A stretch of DNA of 64,000 nt, from contig JAUWHO010000029.1 of NCBI GenBank assembly GCA_030605835.1, positions 1-64,000 of the forward strand, read 5' to 3'. Within the stretch, counting starts at the first letter, position 1, and every line of letters begins with the position of its first letter. The notes below the pieces were generated by a model that searched no databases, was not told where the DNA came from, and was given only the letters and a program-made list of their open reading frames with translations. The DNA is from Candidatus Zixiibacteriota bacterium. GTDB lineage: Bacteria; Zixibacteria; MSB-5A5; DG-27. The position numbers and the translations under genes were made by a program. Positions 2,353 to 12,247 of the stretch are shown here, one piece after another.

Positions 2353-5325
2353 ATGAAACTCTCTCGAAGAGGTTTCTTGAAGGTGACGGGCGCAGCCACC
2401 ACCGGGGCGCTTTTGGGCAACTTCGCTTTCAACCGCAAGTCCTCGGAGGCCTACGCCCAGACCTTGAGAACCCGCTATGCCGAAGAGAGCACCACCATCT
2501 GTCCTTACTGCGCAGTGGGTTGCGGGATGATAGTCTCGGTCTCCAGAGGCAAGGTAATCAACATCGAAGGAGATCCCGACCATCCCATAAACCAGGGTTC
2601 GTTGTGCAGTAAGGGGAGTGCCCTCTTCCAGGTCGCCAACAACGACCGCCGCATGACCAAGGTCCTCTACCGGGCTCCCTACTCCGACCGCTGGGAGGAG
2701 AAAAGCTGGGATTGGACCATCTCTAGGATCGCGGAGAACATCAAGAAGACCCGGGATGCAAATTGGGTCGGCAAGGATTCGAAGGGACGAGTGGTCAACC
2801 GCGTCGAAGCCATCGGCGCTCTGGGGGGAGCGGCACTTGATAATGAGGAGTGTTACCTCTGGTCCAAGTTGGCCCGGGCTTTGGGGATCGTTTACTTGGA
2901 ACACCAGGCCCGCATATGACACTCCGCTACCGTCGCCAGTTTGGCGGAAACATACGGTAGGGGAGCCATGACCAACCACTGGATCGACATCAAGAACGCC
3001 GATTGCATAATGATCATCGGCTCCAATGCCGCCGAGAATCACCCCGTCTCGTTCCGGTGGGTGACCAAGGCGATGGAGAAGGGCGCCAAGCTGATCAACG
3101 TCGATCCCCGCTTCACCCGCACCTCCTCCAAGGCCGATATTTACGCTCCCCTGAGATCCGGCGCCGACATCGCCTTCATAAACGGCGTTATGAACTACAT
3201 CATCGAGAATAATCTTTACGACAAAGATTATCTAGTTGATAACACCAACGCCAGTTTCTTGGTCAACGAGAAGTTCAGTTTCAAGAACGGTCTGTATGTC
3301 GGTTACAACAAGAAAAAGAAAAAATACGACAAAAAGTACTGGAGATACCAGCTCGACGAAAACGGAATCCCCAAGGTCGACAGGACCCTCCAGAATCCCC
3401 GCTGTGTCTTCCAGCTTCTGAGAAAACACCTTTCTCGTTACAACCTCGATGAGGTGTCGGCAATTACCGGGACTCCCAAGCACCTGTTGCTGGAGGTCGC
3501 CAAGATCTATGGAGCTACCGGAGCCAAGGGAAAATCTGGTACCATAATGTATGCTATGGGCACCACCCAGCATACCGTTGGCACCCAGAACGTCCGCAGC
3601 TACGCCATGCTCCAGCTTCTGTTGGGGAATGTGGGAATTGCCGGCGGAGGCATCAATGCCTTAAGAGGGGAGTCCAACGTCCAGGGTTCGACCGACATGG
3701 CCTTACTCTTCCACATCCTCCCGGGCTATCTTAAGACCCCGCGGGTGGAAGATCAGAGCTTAAAGCAATACCTGGAGCACTGGACCCCTAAGTCTGCAGA
3801 TCCCAAGAGCGCCAATTGGTGGCAACACACCCCGAAATATATGGTCAGTCTCCTGAAGGCTTTCTGGGGAGAGCACGCCACCAAGGGTAACCAGTTTGCG
3901 TACTCCTATATGCCCAAGGTGAGCGAGAACTACTCCCACATCACCATGTTCGAGGCCATGTACGACGGCAAGATCAAGGGCTTAATCTGCATGGGGCAGA
4001 ACCCGGCGGTTGGAGGTCCTAACGTCAGGAAGGAAAAGAAGGCCTTAGAGAAGTTAGATTGGCTGGTGGCGGTAGACCTGTGGGAGACCGAGACCGCCTC
4101 CTTCTGGGCAACTCCGGAGGTAGATCCCAAAAAGATCAAAACCGAGGTCTTCATGTTGCCGGCGGCAGCCTCCATGGAGAAGGAGGGCAGCATCACCAAC
4201 AGCGGCCGCTGGATGCAGTGGAGATACCAGGCAGTCCATCCGCCCGGAGATGCCAAATCAGATCTGTGGATCTTAGATAAGCTGGCAAAACAGCTCAAGA
4301 AACTGTATAAGAAGGACGGTGGTGCCTTCGCGGAGCCGATAGTCCATCTCAACTGGAATTACGGCCCCAAAGAGGAGCCGAATGTCCATCTGGTCGCCAA
4401 GGAGATCAACGGATACGATCTGGTCACCGGCAAGCTGGTGCCCTCATTTGGAAAACTCAAAGATGACGGCACCACCTCCTCCGGCAACTGGCTCTATTGT
4501 GCCAGTTACACCGAGAAGGGAAACATGGCCGCTCGCAGAGACCCAAGGGATGCCACCAACAAGATCGGGCTTTATCCCAACTGGTCCTGGTGCTGGCCGG
4601 TGAATCGCAGAATCATCTATAACCGCGCCTCCTGCGACCTCAAGGGGAATCCTCACGCCCCGCATAAATATGTGGTAAAGTGGCTTGCTGACGAAAAGAA
4701 GTGGGTCGGAGATGTCCCCGATGGCGGCTGGCCACCAGGAACCAGGCACTCCTTCATAATGAAGCCGGAGGGACACGCCCGGCTGTTCGGTTTCGGTCTG
4801 GCCGACGGTCCCTTCCCGGAGCACTACGAACCGCTGGAGAGTCCGGTGAAGAACCGCATGTCCAAGACCCAGATTAATCCTGTGACCAAGGTCTGGAGAG
4901 GGGCGATGAACGAGATCGGAAACAAGAAGAAGTATCCCATCATTGCCACCACCTACCGGGTCACCGAACACTGGCAGGCGGGGCAGATGACCCGCAACAA
5001 CGCCTGGCTGGTGGAGCTCATGCCCGACATGTTCGTGGAGATGAGCAAATCTCTGGCAAAATCCAAGAGGATCAAACATGGTGATCGGGTGAAGATAAAG
5101 ACCGCTCGCGGGGAAATCACCGCCTACGCGGTGGTGACCGAACGCTTCCAAGCTTTCAAGCTGAACGGGAGGCTTTACGAGCAGGTCGGTCTGCCGTGGC
5201 ATTTCGGGTATAAGGGTTTGGCACAGGGTTTCAGCGCCAACATCCTCACCCCCCACGTGGGAGACGCCAACACCATGATCCCGGAATACAAGGCGTTCCT
5301 CTGCAATGTAGAGAAGGAGGTGTGA
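2353..5325 (+). CDS. fdnG: respiratory formate dehydrogenase alpha subunit, selenocysteine-containing
   Basis: Oxidises formate to CO2 at a molybdenum (or tungsten) bis-MGD site on the outer side of the inner membrane. The gene reads as one protein of 990 residues if the in-frame TGA at 2917-2919 is decoded as selenocysteine (residue 189). Flanking residues HQARI-U-HSATVASLA match the FdnG active site, and a SECIS-like hairpin follows. The N-terminus carries a twin-arginine signal (SRRGFLK), so the folded enzyme is exported by Tat. A 4Fe-4S site follows (Cys50, Cys53, Cys57, Cys85), then the molybdopterin domains (GRGAMTNHW, GSNAAENHPVSFRW, GNVGIAGGGINALRGESNVQGSTD). Length is close to E. coli FdnG (1015). 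It starts after AGGAGG and is followed four bases later by the beta subunit. Expression needs selABCD elsewhere in the genome. Confidence 0.96.
2927..2960 (+). promoter_or_regulatory. SECIS-like element for selenocysteine insertion
   Basis: Eight to ten bases after the UGA (2917-2919) the mRNA can form a two-part hairpin. The lower stem is CTACCGT (2927-2933) with ACGGTAG (2954-2960). The upper stem is CGCCA (2934-2938) with TGGCG (2942-2946), closed by a GTT loop about 20 bases from the UGA. A 7-base bulge (GAAACAT) lies on the 3' side. A short hairpin with a GU-containing apical loop at this distance is what bacterial SelB recognises. It lies inside the coding region, as is normal in bacteria. 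Confidence 0.8.
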
Positions 5326-5329
5326 CCAG

Positions 5330-6142
5330 ATGGCTGCAAAAGCGATACTCTTCGATTTAGATAAATGCATAGGTTGCCGCGCCTGTCAGGTGGCCTGTAA
5401 AGCCTGGAATCAGCTCCCCGGAGAGGAAACCAGATTCTTCGCGGCCGCTGGGGGTTACCAGAACCCCCCATCCCTTTCGCCCAAGACTTACACCCTGGTC
5501 AAATTCTACGAGACCACCGTGGGCGATAAGTTCAGGTGGATGTTCCGCAAGCACCAGTGCATGCAGTGTGTCGACCCGGCGTGCGTGAAGGCTTGCCCGG
5601 TGGAGCCGGTGAAGGCCATGACCCACGACAAGAAGCTCGGAGTCGTTTACGTCAACAAAGAGCTCTGCATCGGCTGTGGAGCCTGCTACGAGTATTGTCC
5701 CTTCGGGATCCCGCGCATAGACGACAAAACCGAGAAGGCCACCAAGTGCACTTTCTGCTACGATCGGGTTTCCAACGGCATGGAGCCGGCCTGCGTGAAG
5801 GCCTGCCCCACCGATTGCCTAGTCTACGGAGACCGAGACATGATCTTGGAGATGGCTCACAAGGCCCAAAAGAGACTGAAGGCGAAGGGGAGAAACCCTC
5901 AGATTTACGGAGAGAGGGAGCTGGGAACTGGATGTAGCAAGATCTACGTGCTGCCGGAGCCTTTAGGCTATTTCCCCGACCTTCCCAAGAAGCCCAAGGT
6001 CTCCGAGGATCTGGGACTCTTCCACGAGTTCTTGAAGCCCCTTGGCTCGCTGAGCATATCTGCCGCGGTCATAGGATTAGTGATTGCTAGAGTGAAAGAA
6101 GCAAGGCAGACCGAAGAGGTCACAGAGAAAGTCGAAGCTTAA
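5330..6142 (+). CDS. fdnH: formate dehydrogenase iron-sulfur (beta) subunit
   Basis: An electron-transfer subunit that carries electrons from the catalytic subunit through four 4Fe-4S clusters. The 270-residue protein shows the ferredoxin-type motifs in order: CIGCRACQVAC (from about residue 16), CMQCVDPACVKACP, CIGCGACYEYCP and CTFCYDRVSNGMEPACVKACP. Near the C-terminus (about 240-258) is a single hydrophobic stretch, LGSLSISAAVIGLVIA, a likely membrane anchor as in FdnH. It has no signal peptide, which fits co-export with the Tat substrate FdnG. Its Shine-Dalgarno GGAGG lies inside the end of fdnG and the genes are four bases apart, so translation is probably coupled. No cytochrome b subunit follows. 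Confidence 0.94.
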   Translation: MAAKAILFDLDKCIGCRACQVACKAWNQLPGEETRFFAAAGGYQNPPSLSPKTYTLVKFYETTVGDKFRWMFRKHQCMQCVDPACVKACPVEPVKAMTHDKKLGVVYVNKELCIGCGACYEYCPFGIPRIDDKTEKATKCTFCYDRVSNGMEPACVKACPTDCLVYGDRDMILEMAHKAQKRLKAKGRNPQIYGERELGTGCSKIYVLPEPLGYFPDLPKKPKVSEDLGLFHEFLKPLGSLSISAAVIGLVIARVKEARQTEEVTEKVEA

Positions 6143-6162: not shown

Positions 6163-7386
6163 GTGAGAAAAACTGTATTTCTCTCAATCGCCATCGCTTT
6201 GATGTTAGTTGTGAACGCCTCGGCCGGGGTGGATGTCAAACCTTACGGTTTCATCTTGGTGAACGTTGGCATAAATGATGTTCTGGGCACCGATATTCCG
6301 GTGAAGGCCGGGATCGCGGACACGACCACCAGGACCAACTTCCTCATCACCCCCCGGCAGACCCGCTTCGGGCTGAAGATGTCCTCTGAGTGGGAAGACT
6401 GGGAAATAGGCGGTCAGATAGAGCTCGACTTCTGGGGCTTGAAAGGGAGCGGAGCCAACGGGCTCGCGATGCAGTCTGCGCCCCGTTTGAGAAGAGCCTT
6501 CTTCAAAATGACCAGGGAAAACATGACTTTCCTGGTCGGACAGGAGTGGGTATTCTTCGCCCCCCTCTCTCCCACCTCCATCGCCCACGTCTCCATTCCG
6601 GAGTTCTCCAGCTGCGGAAACCTCTGGAACCGGATGCCACAGATCAGGTTTGAGCACCAGCATGACCTCGGCGAGAACGGATCCGTCCTTTTCCAGTGGG
6701 CGCTGCTAAGACCTCTGGGGGCGGATGTCGCCACCGCCACCAGGACTCAGGGAGAGGCTTTCGGGGCCGGTGAATACAACGGCCTTCCCTTCTTCCAGGG
6801 TAGGGTCTCCGCCAGCTTCGACAATAATGTGACGATCGGTTTCTCCAGTCATTACGGCCAAGAGGACTGGGACAAGGCCTATCCGACCATGGATTTTCAC
6901 GAGGATAAGACCACCACCGCCGCCGCCGCCGTGGACTTCAAAGCCAAGGCCGGGATTTTCGGCCTCTCTGGGGAGTGGTTCATGGGAAGTAATTTGCGGA
7001 TGCTCTTCAGCAACGCTCACGTTTGGGCCGAGTTCGACGCCGTCAGCGGAAAGAACAAGGTCAAGGGGGTGGAGGCCAACGGTGGATGGGGACAAATCTC
7101 CCTCAAACCGCAGAACACAAATCTCTCCTTCAACACCGGGGTGGGAACCGAAATCCTCAAGGAAGAGCACGTCGATTCCCTGGCAGCCGCGGGAGCGGCC
7201 CAGCTGTGGAAAAATCTGACCTTCTTCGCCAACATCATGGCCAAGCCGATGGACAATGTCACCGTTGCGTTTGAGTACGGTTACCTGAAGACCACGTACA
7301 AATACTGGGATGCGACCGCGGCCGCACTGGCGGAGAGCGATGCTAATAACAGTAACTTCAATCTGGCCTTTAAATTCGATTTTTAA
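6163..7386 (+). CDS. outer-membrane porin-like beta-barrel protein
   Basis: A 407-residue protein with a GTG start behind AGGAGA, a signal peptide (MRKTVFLSIAIALMLVVNASA) and a long run of alternating strand-forming segments with aromatic girdles (RQTRFGLKMSSEWEDWEIGGQIELDFWG, NLAFKFDF at the C-terminus). The last residue is Phe, typical for BAM-inserted barrels. The RxTRFGLK...GQIELDF pattern resembles DcaP-like or other trimeric porins. It lies between the formate dehydrogenase beta subunit and a membrane protein in the same transcription direction, so it may bring formate, or a metal oxyanion for the cofactor, across the outer membrane. That role is inference. Confidence 0.75.
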   Translation: MRKTVFLSIAIALMLVVNASAGVDVKPYGFILVNVGINDVLGTDIPVKAGIADTTTRTNFLITPRQTRFGLKMSSEWEDWEIGGQIELDFWGLKGSGANGLAMQSAPRLRRAFFKMTRENMTFLVGQEWVFFAPLSPTSIAHVSIPEFSSCGNLWNRMPQIRFEHQHDLGENGSVLFQWALLRPLGADVATATRTQGEAFGAGEYNGLPFFQGRVSASFDNNVTIGFSSHYGQEDWDKAYPTMDFHEDKTTTAAAAVDFKAKAGIFGLSGEWFMGSNLRMLFSNAHVWAEFDAVSGKNKVKGVEANGGWGQISLKPQNTNLSFNTGVGTEILKEEHVDSLAAAGAAQLWKNLTFFANIMAKPMDNVTVAFEYGYLKTTYKYWDATAAALAESDANNSNFNLAFKFDF

Positions 7387-7398
7387 GGAGCGGAAAAT

Positions 7399-8049
7399 AT
7401 GAGCGACAAAAAGAGGCTTATCTTAGGAATCATACTTTTCGGCTCCATCTGGGGCGGGTTGGAGGCGCTGGGAATAAAAGTGATGGGTGCGACCGGCTTC
7501 CACCCCAGCTCCCCTGTTCTGGCCCTGATTGCGATTCTCTTATTGGCATCCGCCCGGGTGGTTTTCCCCAGGGCCGGCACCACCATCCTGATTGCGCTGG
7601 TGGCCGCTGGCTTTAAGTTCCTGAGCCTCCCCAGTGTGTATTTCTGTCAGCTCTGCGCGGTGCTTTTGACCGGCGTGGTCTTCGACCTCGCCTTCAGTCT
7701 GGCGGAGAGAAAAGGCTTGACCAAAAGCCTGGTCAGTTTGGGGATGGTGGGGTTGGTCGCCAGCTACATAAACTACCTGACCTTTGCCTTCTCGGAAGCG
7801 TACCTCTTTGTCAATGCCTACTGGGCTGAAAGAGGAGTGGCTGGTCTTCTCAGATGGGTTTACACCGACGGGAGCTATGCCGCTGCTTTGAGTTTCTTCG
7901 GGATCATAGTTGGAGCAGCTCTGGGGAGAAAGCTGGCGCCGAGGTTCTTAAGGTGGTCCGCCGATGGCGGAAAGGAGAAAGCATACGCCCGGGGACTTAT
8001 TTTGACTTCACTCGGTTTCTGGGTGTTGGGGCTGGTGCTTTATAGCTGA
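7399..8049 (+). CDS. polytopic membrane protein of unknown function
   Basis: A 216-residue integral inner-membrane protein with about six or seven hydrophobic segments (roughly residues 7-28, 38-57, 59-77, 79-101, 109-130, 161-181 and 196-216). It has only one histidine (FHPSS) and no heme-ligating His pairs, so it is not a substitute for the cytochrome b subunit of formate dehydrogenase. Its size and layout resemble small vitamin or metal uptake components such as ECF S-proteins, but I see no diagnostic motif and do not assign it. It follows the porin by 12 bases behind AAGGAG and is followed by a strong hairpin at 8095-8124. Its position suggests a role in formate, molybdate or electron transport. 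Confidence 0.65.
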   Translation: MSDKKRLILGIILFGSIWGGLEALGIKVMGATGFHPSSPVLALIAILLLASARVVFPRAGTTILIALVAAGFKFLSLPSVYFCQLCAVLLTGVVFDLAFSLAERKGLTKSLVSLGMVGLVASYINYLTFAFSEAYLFVNAYWAERGVAGLLRWVYTDGSYAAALSFFGIIVGAALGRKLAPRFLRWSADGGKEKAYARGLILTSLGFWVLGLVLYS

Positions 8050-8143: not shown

Positions 8144-8302
8144 ATGGAAAATCCGGGACAAGTAAAGATCAAGGTGAACCAGAAAGAGCTTTCCTTGAAT
8201 CCGTTCGTCACCAATCTGACAGGGAGCATCGTCTGGGCGATCGTCTCCTCCCTGAAGACCGATGAGGAAGCTCACGAAGTCGTCATTGAAGTCTCTCGAT
8301 AA
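8144..8302 (+). CDS. conserved-looking 52-residue protein upstream of mobB
   Basis: Starts with ATG at 8144 behind AAGGAGAAAGG and ends with TAA at 8300-8302. The sequence begins MENPGQVKIKVNQKELSL, continues with NPFVTNLTGSIVWAIVSSLK and ends EVVIEVSR. It reads like a single small alpha/beta unit: a first strand (VKIKVN), a helix (FVTNLTGSIVWAIVSSLK) and a last strand (EVVIEV). It sits 19 bases before mobB, inside the formate dehydrogenase and molybdenum cofactor block, with strand-helix-strand spacing that looks selected rather than random. I recall small proteins of this shape next to mobB in other anaerobes, but cannot confirm that here. Function unknown; it could be a cofactor or metal-handling partner. 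Confidence 0.7.
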   Translation: MENPGQVKIKVNQKELSLNPFVTNLTGSIVWAIVSSLKTDEEAHEVVIEVSR

Positions 8303-8321
8303 TTCGGGAGTGAGAATAGAT

Positions 8322-8846
8322 ATGTCTTCAGGTTCCCTTCGGGGAAAAGTGTTGCTGGTGGTGGGGAGAAAGAAGGTCGGCAAAACCAGCCTCATCGAGA
8401 AGCTTCTGTCAGCATTGAAAGAGAGAGGCTACAAATTAGGGAGCATCAAATACACCACCGGAGATCACGAATTCGATACTCCCGGGAAGGATTCCTACAG
8501 GCACGCCAAAGCGGGGGCGGAAACTACCATGATTCTCTCTCCCCACAAAGCCGCTATCTTCTCAAGCAGCCTGAGGGACAGACAGTTTGAAGAGGTTCTA
8601 GATTTTCTTTTCCGGGGATACGACCTGGTGCTGGGGGAGGGATTCAGAAGCTCACCATATCCGAAAATCGAAGTTCACAATACAGAAGGCAACTCCGCCC
8701 CTCTCTGTTCGCCAGAGGATAACCTGATCGCTTTAGTCTCCAAGAGAAAGGTTGATATTGGCGTACCCTGCTTTTCGCCGGAAACAATTGACCCCTTAGT
8801 AGAGTTCATCGAAGAAAGGTTTTTAAAAAAAGATAGAAAGCAGTGA
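8322..8846 (+). CDS. mobB: molybdopterin-guanine dinucleotide biosynthesis adapter protein MobB
   Basis: A P-loop GTP-binding protein that assists MobA in attaching GMP to molybdopterin to make the MGD cofactor needed by FdnG. The Walker A motif VVGRKKVGKTSLIEKL is near the N-terminus, followed by the family segments GSIKYTTGDHEFDTPGKDSYRHAKAGA and DLVLGEGFRSSPYPKIEV. About 174 residues from the chosen ATG at 8322, which follows GGGAGTGAGA. A longer frame from 8262 would overlap the 52-residue gene and has no ribosome binding site; a GTG at 8310 is a possible alternative. The stop codon overlaps the GTG start of the TonB-dependent receptor. Confidence 0.92.
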   Translation: MSSGSLRGKVLLVVGRKKVGKTSLIEKLLSALKERGYKLGSIKYTTGDHEFDTPGKDSYRHAKAGAETTMILSPHKAAIFSSSLRDRQFEEVLDFLFRGYDLVLGEGFRSSPYPKIEVHNTEGNSAPLCSPEDNLIALVSKRKVDIGVPCFSPETIDPLVEFIEERFLKKDRKQ

Positions 8847-10825
8847 CAGCCAAGATTCTGAAACCTCTCGCGGTAGCGTTCCTTCTGGTCCTTCTTTTTC
8901 TTTGGAATATCGCCGAGGCCGACATCGCTTCGGATTCCCTGCGGACCTACTATTTGGGGGAGGTGGTGGTAACCGCAAAGAGGTCTCCGGCAAGCCTGAC
9001 CACCAGCCTGCGGGAGGTGACAAAAGAGGAGATGGCCGCGCGCCAGATTCAGACCGTGGCGGAGGCGATTCAGACTCTGCCGGGAGGGTATGTCTCTATC
9101 GGTGCCCGCAACGAGATGGTGGTGCAACTGCGCGGAATTGAACAGAGGCAGGTTGCAGTCCTTTTGGACGGGGTGCCGATCTACGTGCCCTACGACGGGG
9201 TCGTCGACCTCGGGGAGATCCCCATGGAGGTGGTGGAAAAAATCACCGTCACCGCCGGAAATGCCTCGGTGTTGTATGGGCCCAATTCCCTGGGGGGAAC
9301 CATAAATATCATCAGCAAGTCGCCCGGAAGACTTCAGAGCCACGTCCAAACGACATTTGGCAGCGGAAATCTCCAGGTCTATTCATTAGGGGGAAGCGGA
9401 ACGGTGGGGAGTTTCGGTTACCTGTTGACGGGATCTTATCGCCGGCAGGATCATTTCCGCTTGAGCGATGATTTTCCCGAGGCTCCCAACGAGGACGGAG
9501 AATACCGCGACAACAGCGATTACGAGAAATTTGATTTCCTTGCCAAGCTATCCTGGCGTCCCAATAACCGACACCATACCGCGCTGTCGCTCTCTCATCT
9601 GACCAATGAGAAGGGCGTTCCCCCGAAAATCTACGATGAGCGACCGCGCTTTTGGCGTTTTCCGGAGTGGAGAAAGTGGGTGCTCAATTTGACCACCAGC
9701 CAGACCTTCGACCCCGGTTGGTTCCTGAAAGGGACCTTCTTCTACGACAAGTATGACAACATCCTCGATTCCTACGACGATGACACTTATAGCACTCAAA
9801 CGAAAAGGTATGCCTTCCATTCCGTCTACGACGATTACTCCGCCGGTTTCAACTTCTATGTGACCAAGTCCTTCTCTGAGAAAAATGAGTTGACCCTGGG
9901 GGCGGGCCTCAAAAGGGATGTCCACCGGGAGCAGCCGGGCAGAGGTGAGCCCTTCGAGTGGTACGAGATCCAAAGCTACAACCTCGGTCTGGAGGATGAG
10001 TGGACTGTCTCGAGGAAGCTGGCGCTCTCCGGAGGCCTGAGCCTGAATATGCTGCACCCCATCTTCGCCGAAGCTGCACCATTGCGAGACGATATGAGCA
10101 CCCTCGACGGTCGGTTGGGAGCCCACATTTCTCTGACCGAGACTATGAGCCTGTTCGGCTCCATCGGGAAAAAGACCAGATTCCCAACCTTGAAGGAGTT
10201 ATACTCCGGGTATGCCGGACGCAATGTTCCTAACCCGGATCTGAAGGAGGAATCGGCCACAAACATGGAACTGGGTGTCTCTCTGTTGTGGGGTCACTCC
10301 GGCAGAGCGGAGCTGGTCTTATTCGACAGCGAGATCACCAACCTGGTTGTCGACAGGGTCGTTGTTGTGGAGGGCGAAGAGAAAGAAATGCTGGACAATA
10401 TCGGCAAGGCTCGTCATCTGGGGATGGAGCTGGGGGGGAACTTCTCTCCCGCAGGGAATCTCTCTCTGTCCAGCAGCTACACCTTCCTGAAGGCTCTGAA
10501 CCGCTCTCCCGGCCAGGAGGGGAACAAGCTTCCCTATCGTCCCCAACATCGGATTCTTGTGGGGATTGACTACACCTTGCCAACAGAATCAACTCTGAGA
10601 CTCAACAGCACTTTCACCAGCGAGAGGAGCTATTTTGACCGCGATGATAACCTCCAGGAGCTGCCCGGGTATTTCACCGTTGATTTCCACCTCAGCCAAC
10701 ATCTAGGCGAATACCTGAGTTTCAATTTTTCGCTTTACAATCTATTCGATGAGTATTACGAGTCCGAATACGGTATCCCCATGCCGGGGAGAAATTTTTC
10801 AATCGGAATCGAGATGAGTTATTAG
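8843..10825 (+). CDS. TonB-dependent outer-membrane receptor in the molybdenum cofactor operon
   Basis: An energy-gated outer-membrane receptor for a scarce, tightly bound nutrient. The 660-residue protein has a GTG start overlapping the mobB stop (GTGA), a signal peptide (about 1-27), a TonB-box-like LGEVVVTAKR, then a plug domain (EAIQTLPGGYVSI, VQLRGIEQRQVAVLLDGVPI, ITVTAGNASVLYGPNSLGGTINIISK) and a 22-strand-type barrel ending NFSIGIEMSY. The barrel contains LRLNSTFTSERSYFD and LYNLFDEYYESEYG, typical of cobalamin or siderophore receptors. It is wedged with no gap between mobB and mobA. I infer that it may import a molybdenum, tungsten or similar chelate used for the formate dehydrogenase, but the substrate cannot be read from sequence. 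No TonB/ExbBD genes are nearby. Confidence 0.9.
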   Translation: MTAKILKPLAVAFLLVLLFLWNIAEADIASDSLRTYYLGEVVVTAKRSPASLTTSLREVTKEEMAARQIQTVAEAIQTLPGGYVSIGARNEMVVQLRGIEQRQVAVLLDGVPIYVPYDGVVDLGEIPMEVVEKITVTAGNASVLYGPNSLGGTINIISKSPGRLQSHVQTTFGSGNLQVYSLGGSGTVGSFGYLLTGSYRRQDHFRLSDDFPEAPNEDGEYRDNSDYEKFDFLAKLSWRPNNRHHTALSLSHLTNEKGVPPKIYDERPRFWRFPEWRKWVLNLTTSQTFDPGWFLKGTFFYDKYDNILDSYDDDTYSTQTKRYAFHSVYDDYSAGFNFYVTKSFSEKNELTLGAGLKRDVHREQPGRGEPFEWYEIQSYNLGLEDEWTVSRKLALSGGLSLNMLHPIFAEAAPLRDDMSTLDGRLGAHISLTETMSLFGSIGKKTRFPTLKELYSGYAGRNVPNPDLKEESATNMELGVSLLWGHSGRAELVLFDSEITNLVVDRVVVVEGEEKEMLDNIGKARHLGMELGGNFSPAGNLSLSSSYTFLKALNRSPGQEGNKLPYRPQHRILVGIDYTLPTESTLRLNSTFTSERSYFDRDDNLQELPGYFTVDFHLSQHLGEYLSFNFSLYNLFDEYYESEYGIPMPGRNFSIGIEMSY

Positions 10826-11422
10826 ATGACCGGGATAATCCTCGCTGGAGGCAAAAACACCAGAATTGCAGAAGAGAAAGCCTTCATTCAGCTTGAAGGT
10901 GGCCAACCCCTCATCGCCCGGATCATCAAAGTCCTCAAAGCTCTCTTCCCGGAGATATTGATAGTCGCCAATAAGAGGGAGGCGTATCGGGATTATGACC
11001 TCCCGGTAGTGCAGGATTTGATTAAGGGCAAAGGCCCCTTAGGAGGGATCTTCACCGGGCTCTGCTATTCCACTTCTGATTACAACTTCGTGGTGGGGTG
11101 CGACATGCCCTTCATAGAACCCTCGCTCGTGAAGTTCATGGTAGAGAGCTCTGAGGGGTACGATGTCGTCATTCCCGAAATCGGAGGGGAGGTGGAGCCG
11201 CTCTTTGCCCTGTATTCAAAAAGCTGCATTGCGGTTATCTTCGAGCATCTGATGAGGGACAACCTCAAAACCAGAGAAATCCTGGATAAACTGAAGGTGA
11301 AGAGGATCGGCAAAAAAGAGATAGACCGATTTGACCCCCGGCGTTTGAGCTTTTTTAATCTTAATACTCCGGCAGACCAGAAGAGGGCCGAGGAGCTTCT
11401 CCAAGATTATGCCTCAAAATAA
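10826..11422 (+). CDS. mobA: molybdenum cofactor guanylyltransferase MobA
   Basis: Transfers GMP from GTP to molybdopterin, giving the MGD form bound by FdnG; cytoplasmic. The 198-residue protein has the nucleotidyltransferase signature ILAGGKNTRIAEEKAFI at residues 4-20, the middle motif QDLIKGKGPLGGIFTGL and the metal-binding VVGCDMPFI. The length is normal for the family. Its ATG follows the TAG of the receptor gene directly, with no intergenic base, so the two are transcribed together and probably coupled. FdhD follows 27 bases later. Confidence 0.93.
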   Translation: MTGIILAGGKNTRIAEEKAFIQLEGGQPLIARIIKVLKALFPEILIVANKREAYRDYDLPVVQDLIKGKGPLGGIFTGLCYSTSDYNFVVGCDMPFIEPSLVKFMVESSEGYDVVIPEIGGEVEPLFALYSKSCIAVIFEHLMRDNLKTREILDKLKVKRIGKKEIDRFDPRRLSFFNLNTPADQKRAEELLQDYASK

Positions 11423-11449: not shown

Positions 11450-12247
11450 TTGGCACCGGCGACGAAAAGCTATCCGGTAATCAGGATTAAAGGGGGAAAG
11501 AGATCCGGCGAAAGGGATACGGTTGTAGATGAGGGAGAACTGACCATCTTTCTGAACGGCCAGAAGGTCGTCACCCTCTCTTGCACCCCCAAGGAAGAGA
11601 AATACTTGGCCCTCGGGTTTCTCTTCTCGGAGGGGATAGTCAAAGATAGAGGGGAGATAAAGAGAGTAGCCTCATATCCGCAGAGAGAAGAGGTGAGGGT
11701 CTTCACCAAAAGGGAGGACAAGCTCTCCGGGGACTTCCTTCAAACTGCGGTTCTGACTTCAGGCTGTGGAAAGGGTAAGAGCTTCAAGTCTCTGGAGAAG
11801 ATAAACCCTCTCGAAGATATTCTGCTCAATTTCGACTTCAGCCTCACCCCCTCTGAGATTCTATCTTTGATGAGGGAGTTCGACAGCAAGTCAACGTTGT
11901 TCAAAAGGACCGGCGGTGTGCACGGTGCCGCCCTTGCTGACAGGGAGAGAATCCTGCTGTTTGCCGAGGATGTCGGTAGACATAACGCCGTCGATAAGGT
12001 TCTGGGCAAAGCCCTTATGAAGAGAATCATCCTGAAAGATAAGCTGATCCTCTCCAGCGGCAGAATATCCTCCGATCTATTGGTTAAAGTCTGGAGGGCC
12101 GGATTGAGCCTCATCTGTTCGAGGTCTGCGCCCACCGGTAAGGCCTTGGATTTGGCAAAGAACCTGGGAGTAACCGTGGTCGGGTTTGTCCGGGGAAGGA
12201 GAATGAACGTCTACACTTATCCAGCCAGGATAGCCACCTCCGAATAG
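11450..12247 (+). CDS. fdhD: formate dehydrogenase sulfurtransferase FdhD
   Basis: Transfers sulfur from a cysteine desulfurase to the molybdenum cofactor of formate dehydrogenase, which is essential for activity. The 265-residue protein starts at TTG behind AGGAGTGAGG. Family segments are EKYLALGFLFSEGIV, VLTSGCGKG with the conserved Cys (one Cys rather than the CxxC of E. coli), RTGGVHGAAL, EDVGRHNAVDKVLG and LILSSGRISSDLLVK, and ICSRSAPTGKALDLAKNLGVTVVGFVRG. Last gene of the + strand formate dehydrogenase block; it converges with the agmatinase gene. Confidence 0.95.
   Translation: MAPATKSYPVIRIKGGKRSGERDTVVDEGELTIFLNGQKVVTLSCTPKEEKYLALGFLFSEGIVKDRGEIKRVASYPQREEVRVFTKREDKLSGDFLQTAVLTSGCGKGKSFKSLEKINPLEDILLNFDFSLTPSEILSLMREFDSKSTLFKRTGGVHGAALADRERILLFAEDVGRHNAVDKVLGKALMKRIILKDKLILSSGRISSDLLVKVWRAGLSLICSRSAPTGKALDLAKNLGVTVVGFVRGRRMNVYTYPARIATSE

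Follow-up and report, generated by a model that had tools for sequence, protein, structure and literature searches.

Among described systems, one of the closest precedents for the proposal made here is BtuB with its inner-membrane importer. In organisms that may be unable to make cobalamin, this pair takes up the bulky, finished cofactor in a TonB-dependent manner. By profile, BtuB is also the best PDB match of the TonB-dependent receptor studied here. However, the receptor scores far below the BtuB cut-offs (138 of 600 bits for TIGR01779; 111 of 836 for PRK10641), is linked to mob and fdh genes, has no cobalamin riboswitch, and is accompanied by a membrane protein without a family match. FepA, CirA and TonB-hemin receptors share its fold of Plug and barrel, and the clade to which the receptor belongs (clade I, below) groups with proteobacterial receptors. 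The iron-type models likewise score below their cut-offs (siderophore/haem models TIGR01783, 149 of 223.5 bits; TIGR01785, 165 of 317 bits). Unlike those receptors, it has no iron genes nearby, and its distribution follows the absence of moaA/moaC and the presence of formate dehydrogenase.

ModABC, TupABC and WtpABC serve molybdenum and tungsten enzymes, but move oxyanions across the inner membrane and supply no pterin. ECF-type S components (PF09819, YkoE-like) are small polytopic vitamin permeases. One adjoins a relative of the receptor in another genome (G061), but the membrane protein of the present locus shares no detectable sequence match with it (hhalign). In Caenorhabditis elegans, mature dietary Moco replaces de novo synthesis, although this is an animal that takes up protein-bound Moco (PMC9793310). 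Within the literature searched, outside which many subscription papers lie, there is no described bacterial system for uptake, import or salvage of Moco or molybdopterin. As regards Moco uptake, work on type 11 secretion receptors offers speculation only (PMC12282271), and a Desulfitobacterium genome report contains an annotation phrase only (PMC4511579). Acquisition from outside of ready-made Moco or a late precursor, the most likely role of the receptor, is described for no bacterium in that literature.

A TonB-dependent receptor within a formate dehydrogenase operon

The window analysed is a 64,000-nucleotide stretch of a Candidatus Zixiibacteriota genome (G000). Its formate dehydrogenase locus comprises the following features.

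817 to 1647, + strand: fdhE (PF24859, PF24860)
1806 to 2288, + strand: c-type cytochrome (weak cytochrome c matches; conserved in relatives)
2353 to 5325, + strand: fdnG, Tat-exported formate dehydrogenase alpha subunit (TIGR01553, 1158 bits, second part)
5330 to 6142, + strand: fdnH, iron-sulfur beta subunit (TIGR01582, below its cut-off; Fer4_11)
6163 to 7386, + strand: putative outer-membrane porin (no Pfam match of its own; a PF07396-type porin fills this slot in relatives)
7399 to 8049, + strand: polytopic membrane protein of 216 aa, family undescribed (hydrophobic segments; co-occurrence with the receptor)
8144 to 8302, + strand: 52-aa protein resembling the C-terminal region of certain MobB fusions (PRK14494-type model, E 1.4e-5)
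8322 to 8846, + strand: mobB (PF03205, E 4e-37)
8843 to 10825, + strand: TonB-dependent receptor, clade I (PF07715, PF00593, mob/fdh linkage, profile search, tree)
10826 to 11422, + strand: mobA, molybdenum cofactor guanylyltransferase (PF12804 and NCBIfam MobA models)
11450 to 12247, + strand: fdhD, formate dehydrogenase sulfurtransferase (TIGR00129, above cut-off)

All operon genes from fdhE through fdhD lie on the + strand. The receptor ORF encodes 660 aa from a GTG start, and its first 4 nt are shared with the end of mobB (stop TGA, 8844-8846). The mobA ATG at 10826 comes immediately after the receptor's own stop (10823-10825). The original prediction had described both contacts correctly, and such gene overlaps make a single transcript likely. 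For mobB, the listed ORF spans 8262-8846 and the likely start is the ATG at 8322. An in-frame TGA within fdnG (2917-2919) is, as read in the sequence, translated as selenocysteine.

Both receptor domains were matched above their cut-offs (Plug PF07715, E 1.5e-21; TonB_dep_Rec_b-barrel PF00593, E 3e-38). Reading of the sequence shows a hydrophobic N-terminus resembling a signal peptide and a TonB-box-like motif (YYLGEVVVTA), both kept in the alignment.

The porin slot is occupied by PF07396-type, phosphate-selective-like proteins in most relatives; the window and G007 have a barrel there that looks unrelated. ORFs similar to the 52-aa protein (KVNGKELSLNPFV...) were found in three other loci (L017, 2363-2584; L022; L116, near the low end).

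Recurrence of the receptor across the phylum

A profile built from nine receptors was searched over 133 genomes of one phylum, mostly MAGs and not independent of one another. It returned 19 matches above 420 bits and one contig-end fragment (G042), with a separate group at about 220 bits and below. This type of receptor is thus present in 20 of the 133 genomes, mostly adjoining mobA, mobB, fdhD or formate dehydrogenase genes where the contig allows. The order mobB-receptor-mobA occurs in the window genome and in G001, G008, G030 and G130, at receptor identities of 49-87% for the latter four. Recurrence of this order in four further genomes, and of mob/fdh linkage in many more, argues that the arrangement did not arise by chance. 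Receptors adjoin mobA in seven additional genomes (G007, G037, G096, G094, G097, G062 and G066), usually with mobB and fdhD as well and mostly on the opposite strand. Others lie beside formate dehydrogenase genes (G063, G026) or mobB (G107). Three loci were cut by contig ends (G052, G108, G042). No mob gene was found near the receptor in G047 or G061, where it accompanies a lipoprotein gene. Outside the group, eleven receptor loci were read and all were without mob/fdh neighbours.

The survey thus revealed recurrent linkage to mobA, mobB and fdhD within the phylum, which supports the earlier view of the receptor as a functional part of a molybdenum-cofactor/formate dehydrogenase operon. Inside the receptor family, members were not found in siderophore or B12 operons devoid of mob genes. 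When genome contigs were scanned with the single protein, the matches were a near-identical contig from Zixibacteria and a weak one from Fulvivirga, and no others.

Maximum-likelihood analysis divided the receptors into clade I, comprising the five with the mobB-receptor-mobA order, and clade II, comprising all others. Clade I groups with proteobacterial receptors, and the loci of two of these adjoin iron ABC transporters. As such receptors are among the closest proteobacterial relatives (26-28% identity), the clade I receptor may have an iron receptor as its ancestor. Within two genera (g8 and g40) the clades swap: G008 carries clade I and its congener G047 clade II, and G130 carries clade I and its congener G052 clade II. 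In G047 the formate dehydrogenase operon is intact, mobB and mobA have no receptor between them, and a clade II receptor with its lipoprotein gene lies elsewhere. Such replacement within genera argues for one shared role.

Cofactor synthesis genes and the receptor

MoaA was called from TIGR02666 matches of at least 200 bits or from split pieces, and MoaC with PF01967. By these measures, about 42 of the 133 genomes encode MoaA and 40 encode MoaC. Both genes are missing from 19 of the 20 receptor genomes, the exception being G026. Completeness is 100% for two of these 19 genomes and 90% or higher for six more, which rules out missing contigs as the explanation. Of the 20 receptor genomes, 17 have no MoeA, a protein encoded by 39 of the 40 MoaC genomes; a MoeA homologue is kept in the window genome and in G037.

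A formate dehydrogenase like that of the window (FdnG) was found in 18 genomes, 17 of which carry the receptor. The remaining genome, G131, has neither the receptor nor the membrane protein, and instead encodes moaA-moaC-MOSC-mogA and moeA. G131 belongs to the same genus as G042 and shares its formate dehydrogenase gene order. In G042, which lacks moaC, the membrane-protein gene lies between fdnH and fdhD; in moaC-bearing G131 it is missing. Across the set, MoaC occurs in all seven genomes with NarG-length enzymes versus 2 of the 18 formate dehydrogenase genomes (Fisher 7e-5, ignoring common descent). Two genomes hold both systems: G026, with the receptor, the membrane protein and a full moa set, and G025, where moa genes accompany the membrane protein.

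In G131 the formate dehydrogenase alpha gene is broken in two, and its parts lie far from each other on a single contig (L111, L112), with the operon halves flanking the break; this reflects either a rearrangement or an assembly error.

Several candidate markers were set aside. PF01568 also matches NuoG-type proteins; the only other PF01568 protein in the window genome is NuoG, which needs no Moco. CbiQ/EcfT is present in 112 of the 133 genomes and was uninformative, and ModA is scarce throughout the phylum, with no ModA-type binding protein (PF13531) found in the window genome. MoaE, the large subunit of MPT synthase, was dropped as a diagnostic since it occurs in only ten genomes overall and is absent from about 31 of the 40 MoaC genomes. 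Its scarcity suggests an unrecognised MPT synthase in most moaA/moaC genomes of the phylum. Riboswitches (B12, TPP, Moco) were absent from the loci scanned, where Rfam gave one tRNA only.

A membrane protein family co-occurring with the receptor

The membrane protein at 7399-8049 has about six to seven hydrophobic segments by hydropathy and matched no Pfam family and no PDB relative. It is found in 23 genomes, including 18 of the 20 with the receptor (Fisher 7e-16, ignoring kinship). Its invariant residues include GS.WG..E, K73, C83 and Q84. AlphaFold models built from two-row alignments were unusable (pLDDT 44 for the membrane protein and 29 for the receptor). The membrane protein was not found on the viral contigs or plasmids searched. 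G061 lacks the membrane protein and encodes an ECF-type permease (PF09819) downstream of the receptor; the two proteins have no sequence match (hhalign probability 0.5%).

Distant relatives adjoin AOR-type aldehyde ferredoxin oxidoreductase genes in six genomes (G004, G025, G043, G084, G107 and G108), in neighbourhoods that often add ferredoxin and a ThiF-family protein. AOR is classically a tungsten enzyme. Further relatives lie beside xanthine-dehydrogenase-type or XdhC genes (G027, G025). The genomes with these AOR- or Mo-hydroxylase/XdhC-linked relatives are mostly moaA-less. The membrane-protein family thus tracks molybdenum/tungsten pterin enzymes of three kinds, judged by its formate dehydrogenase, AOR and xanthine-dehydrogenase-type neighbourhoods.

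The cluster of AOR, ferredoxin, ThiF-family and membrane-protein genes is itself recurrent (L063, L064, L066, L047), in genomes mostly without moaA/moaC, among which G004 is 100% complete.

A lipoprotein encoded at clade II loci

In eight clade II genomes, with one locus truncated at the end of its contig, the gene for a two-domain lipoprotein overlaps or abuts the receptor start. The protein has no Pfam match. The motif order of its repeats recalls the PF00174 molybdopterin-binding domain, and hhalign aligned it with two PF00174 proteins at E 0.004, the top two of 80 comparisons, while other PF00174 proteins scored no better than decoys. Assignment of the lipoprotein to this domain is suggestive only.

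Small PF00174 proteins were also seen in a modA-TOBE-permease operon or beside nifQ on plasmids of Deinococcus psychrotolerans (L137) and Caballeronia (L138), hinting at molybdenum handling rather than catalysis. In Pseudomonas aeruginosa (L126; CP109682.1, 249497-263353), a TonB-dependent receptor gene overlaps a PF00174 gene between dauR and moaA-narIJHG. This receptor was rejected as a family member, as it scores like iron-type receptors.

Proposed salvage of molybdopterin or Moco

The gene order, its repeated occurrence and the mutual exclusion of receptor and moaA/moaC were observed directly, and from them we infer that the receptor probably forms the outer-membrane step of a salvage importer for molybdopterin or for Moco loaded with molybdenum or tungsten. 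The bis-MGD enzyme, MobA, MobB and FdhD are kept while the first steps of molybdopterin synthesis are missing, so an outside source of pterin would be needed. Salvage fits the occurrence of receptor and membrane protein where moaA/moaC are gone and their absence from moaA/moaC-bearing G131. As MoeA is mostly gone too, the imported molybdopterin would most likely be metallated.

In the proposed route, TonB energy would pull molybdopterin, most likely as Mo- or W-loaded Moco, inward through the receptor into the periplasm. Where a lipoprotein gene immediately precedes the receptor gene, as in other genomes, its product may assist. The membrane protein, the putative partner of the receptor (in G061, the ECF-type permease), would then move the pterin into the cytoplasm. 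There, MobB and MobA would add GMP and FdhD would provide sulfur, with the resulting bis-MGD cofactor serving the Tat-exported selenocysteine formate dehydrogenase. We advance more tentatively, at just under an even chance, a fuller picture in which bacteria have a dedicated uptake system for finished Moco. Here a TonB receptor would work with a permease of a new inner-membrane family and, optionally, with a surface lipoprotein that binds the cofactor and has a molybdopterin-binding fold.

Several points speak against salvage. Free Moco is unstable to oxygen, G026 and G025 combine import-candidate genes with moa genes, a MoeA homologue persists in G000 and G037, the scarcity of MoaE among MoaC genomes leaves room for an unrecognised MPT synthase and with it for cPMP import, and a truly novel route to cPMP would mimic the moaA/moaC pattern. 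A rival reading, in which molybdopterin is made by a non-homologous route and the receptor and membrane protein serve another need of formate dehydrogenase, gains from the phylum's existing departure from the textbook pathway, given that MoaE is lacking in most MoaC genomes. However, among formate dehydrogenase genomes MoaA/MoaC are missing only where the receptor is present, the operon offers no candidate for an alternative enzyme, and the membrane protein bears no enzyme signature; we regard this route as improbable. A related proposal has cPMP or some other early precursor imported in place of MPT or Moco. Retention of MoeA in G000 and G037 and the lack of a recognisable MPT synthase in most moaC genomes are in its favour, but the loss of MoeA from most receptor genomes, set against its near-universal presence with MoaC, points to a form past metal insertion and makes an early precursor highly improbable.

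The original prediction had suggested a chelated metal or a selenium compound as cargo. This has become less likely, since metal import would not remedy the loss of moaA/moaC and pterin import would. Import of molybdate or tungstate on a metallophore still draws on the operon context, on a fold that classically carries metal chelates, on BtuB and siderophore receptors as the nearest solved relatives, and on the P. aeruginosa locus, where another such receptor and a PF00174 protein stand beside moaA and nar genes. The window genome's lack of a ModA-type binding protein would also agree with it, but ModA is too scarce in the phylum for this to be diagnostic. Such import leaves unexplained both the tracking of moaA/moaC loss and the absence of the receptor from moaA-bearing G131, and the operons showed no gene for making a metallophore. 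We consider it unlikely. If a common receptor for siderophores, haem or cobalamin had simply been caught up in the operon, this would account for the relatives beside iron ABC transporters and for the weak scores from general haem and B12 models. Yet those scores fall far below the haem, B12 and siderophore cut-offs, the operons contain no iron, haem or B12 genes, the cobalamin riboswitch is absent, and two receptor clades are linked to mob/fdh genes. This reading appears the least probable.

Implications of Moco salvage

Under the proposed salvage, a genome without moaA/moaC could be wrongly annotated as incapable of molybdenum or tungsten use. If salvage of molybdopterin or Moco operates as proposed, formate dehydrogenase or AOR would be run by bacteria without moaA, moaC or moeA. 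A bacterial importer would explain what an undescribed family of membrane proteins does and make the membrane crossing of the cofactor directly testable. It would also be evidence of trade in Moco or its pterin between cells and, on the fuller picture above, would turn Moco into a vitamin that sediment communities share and exchange.
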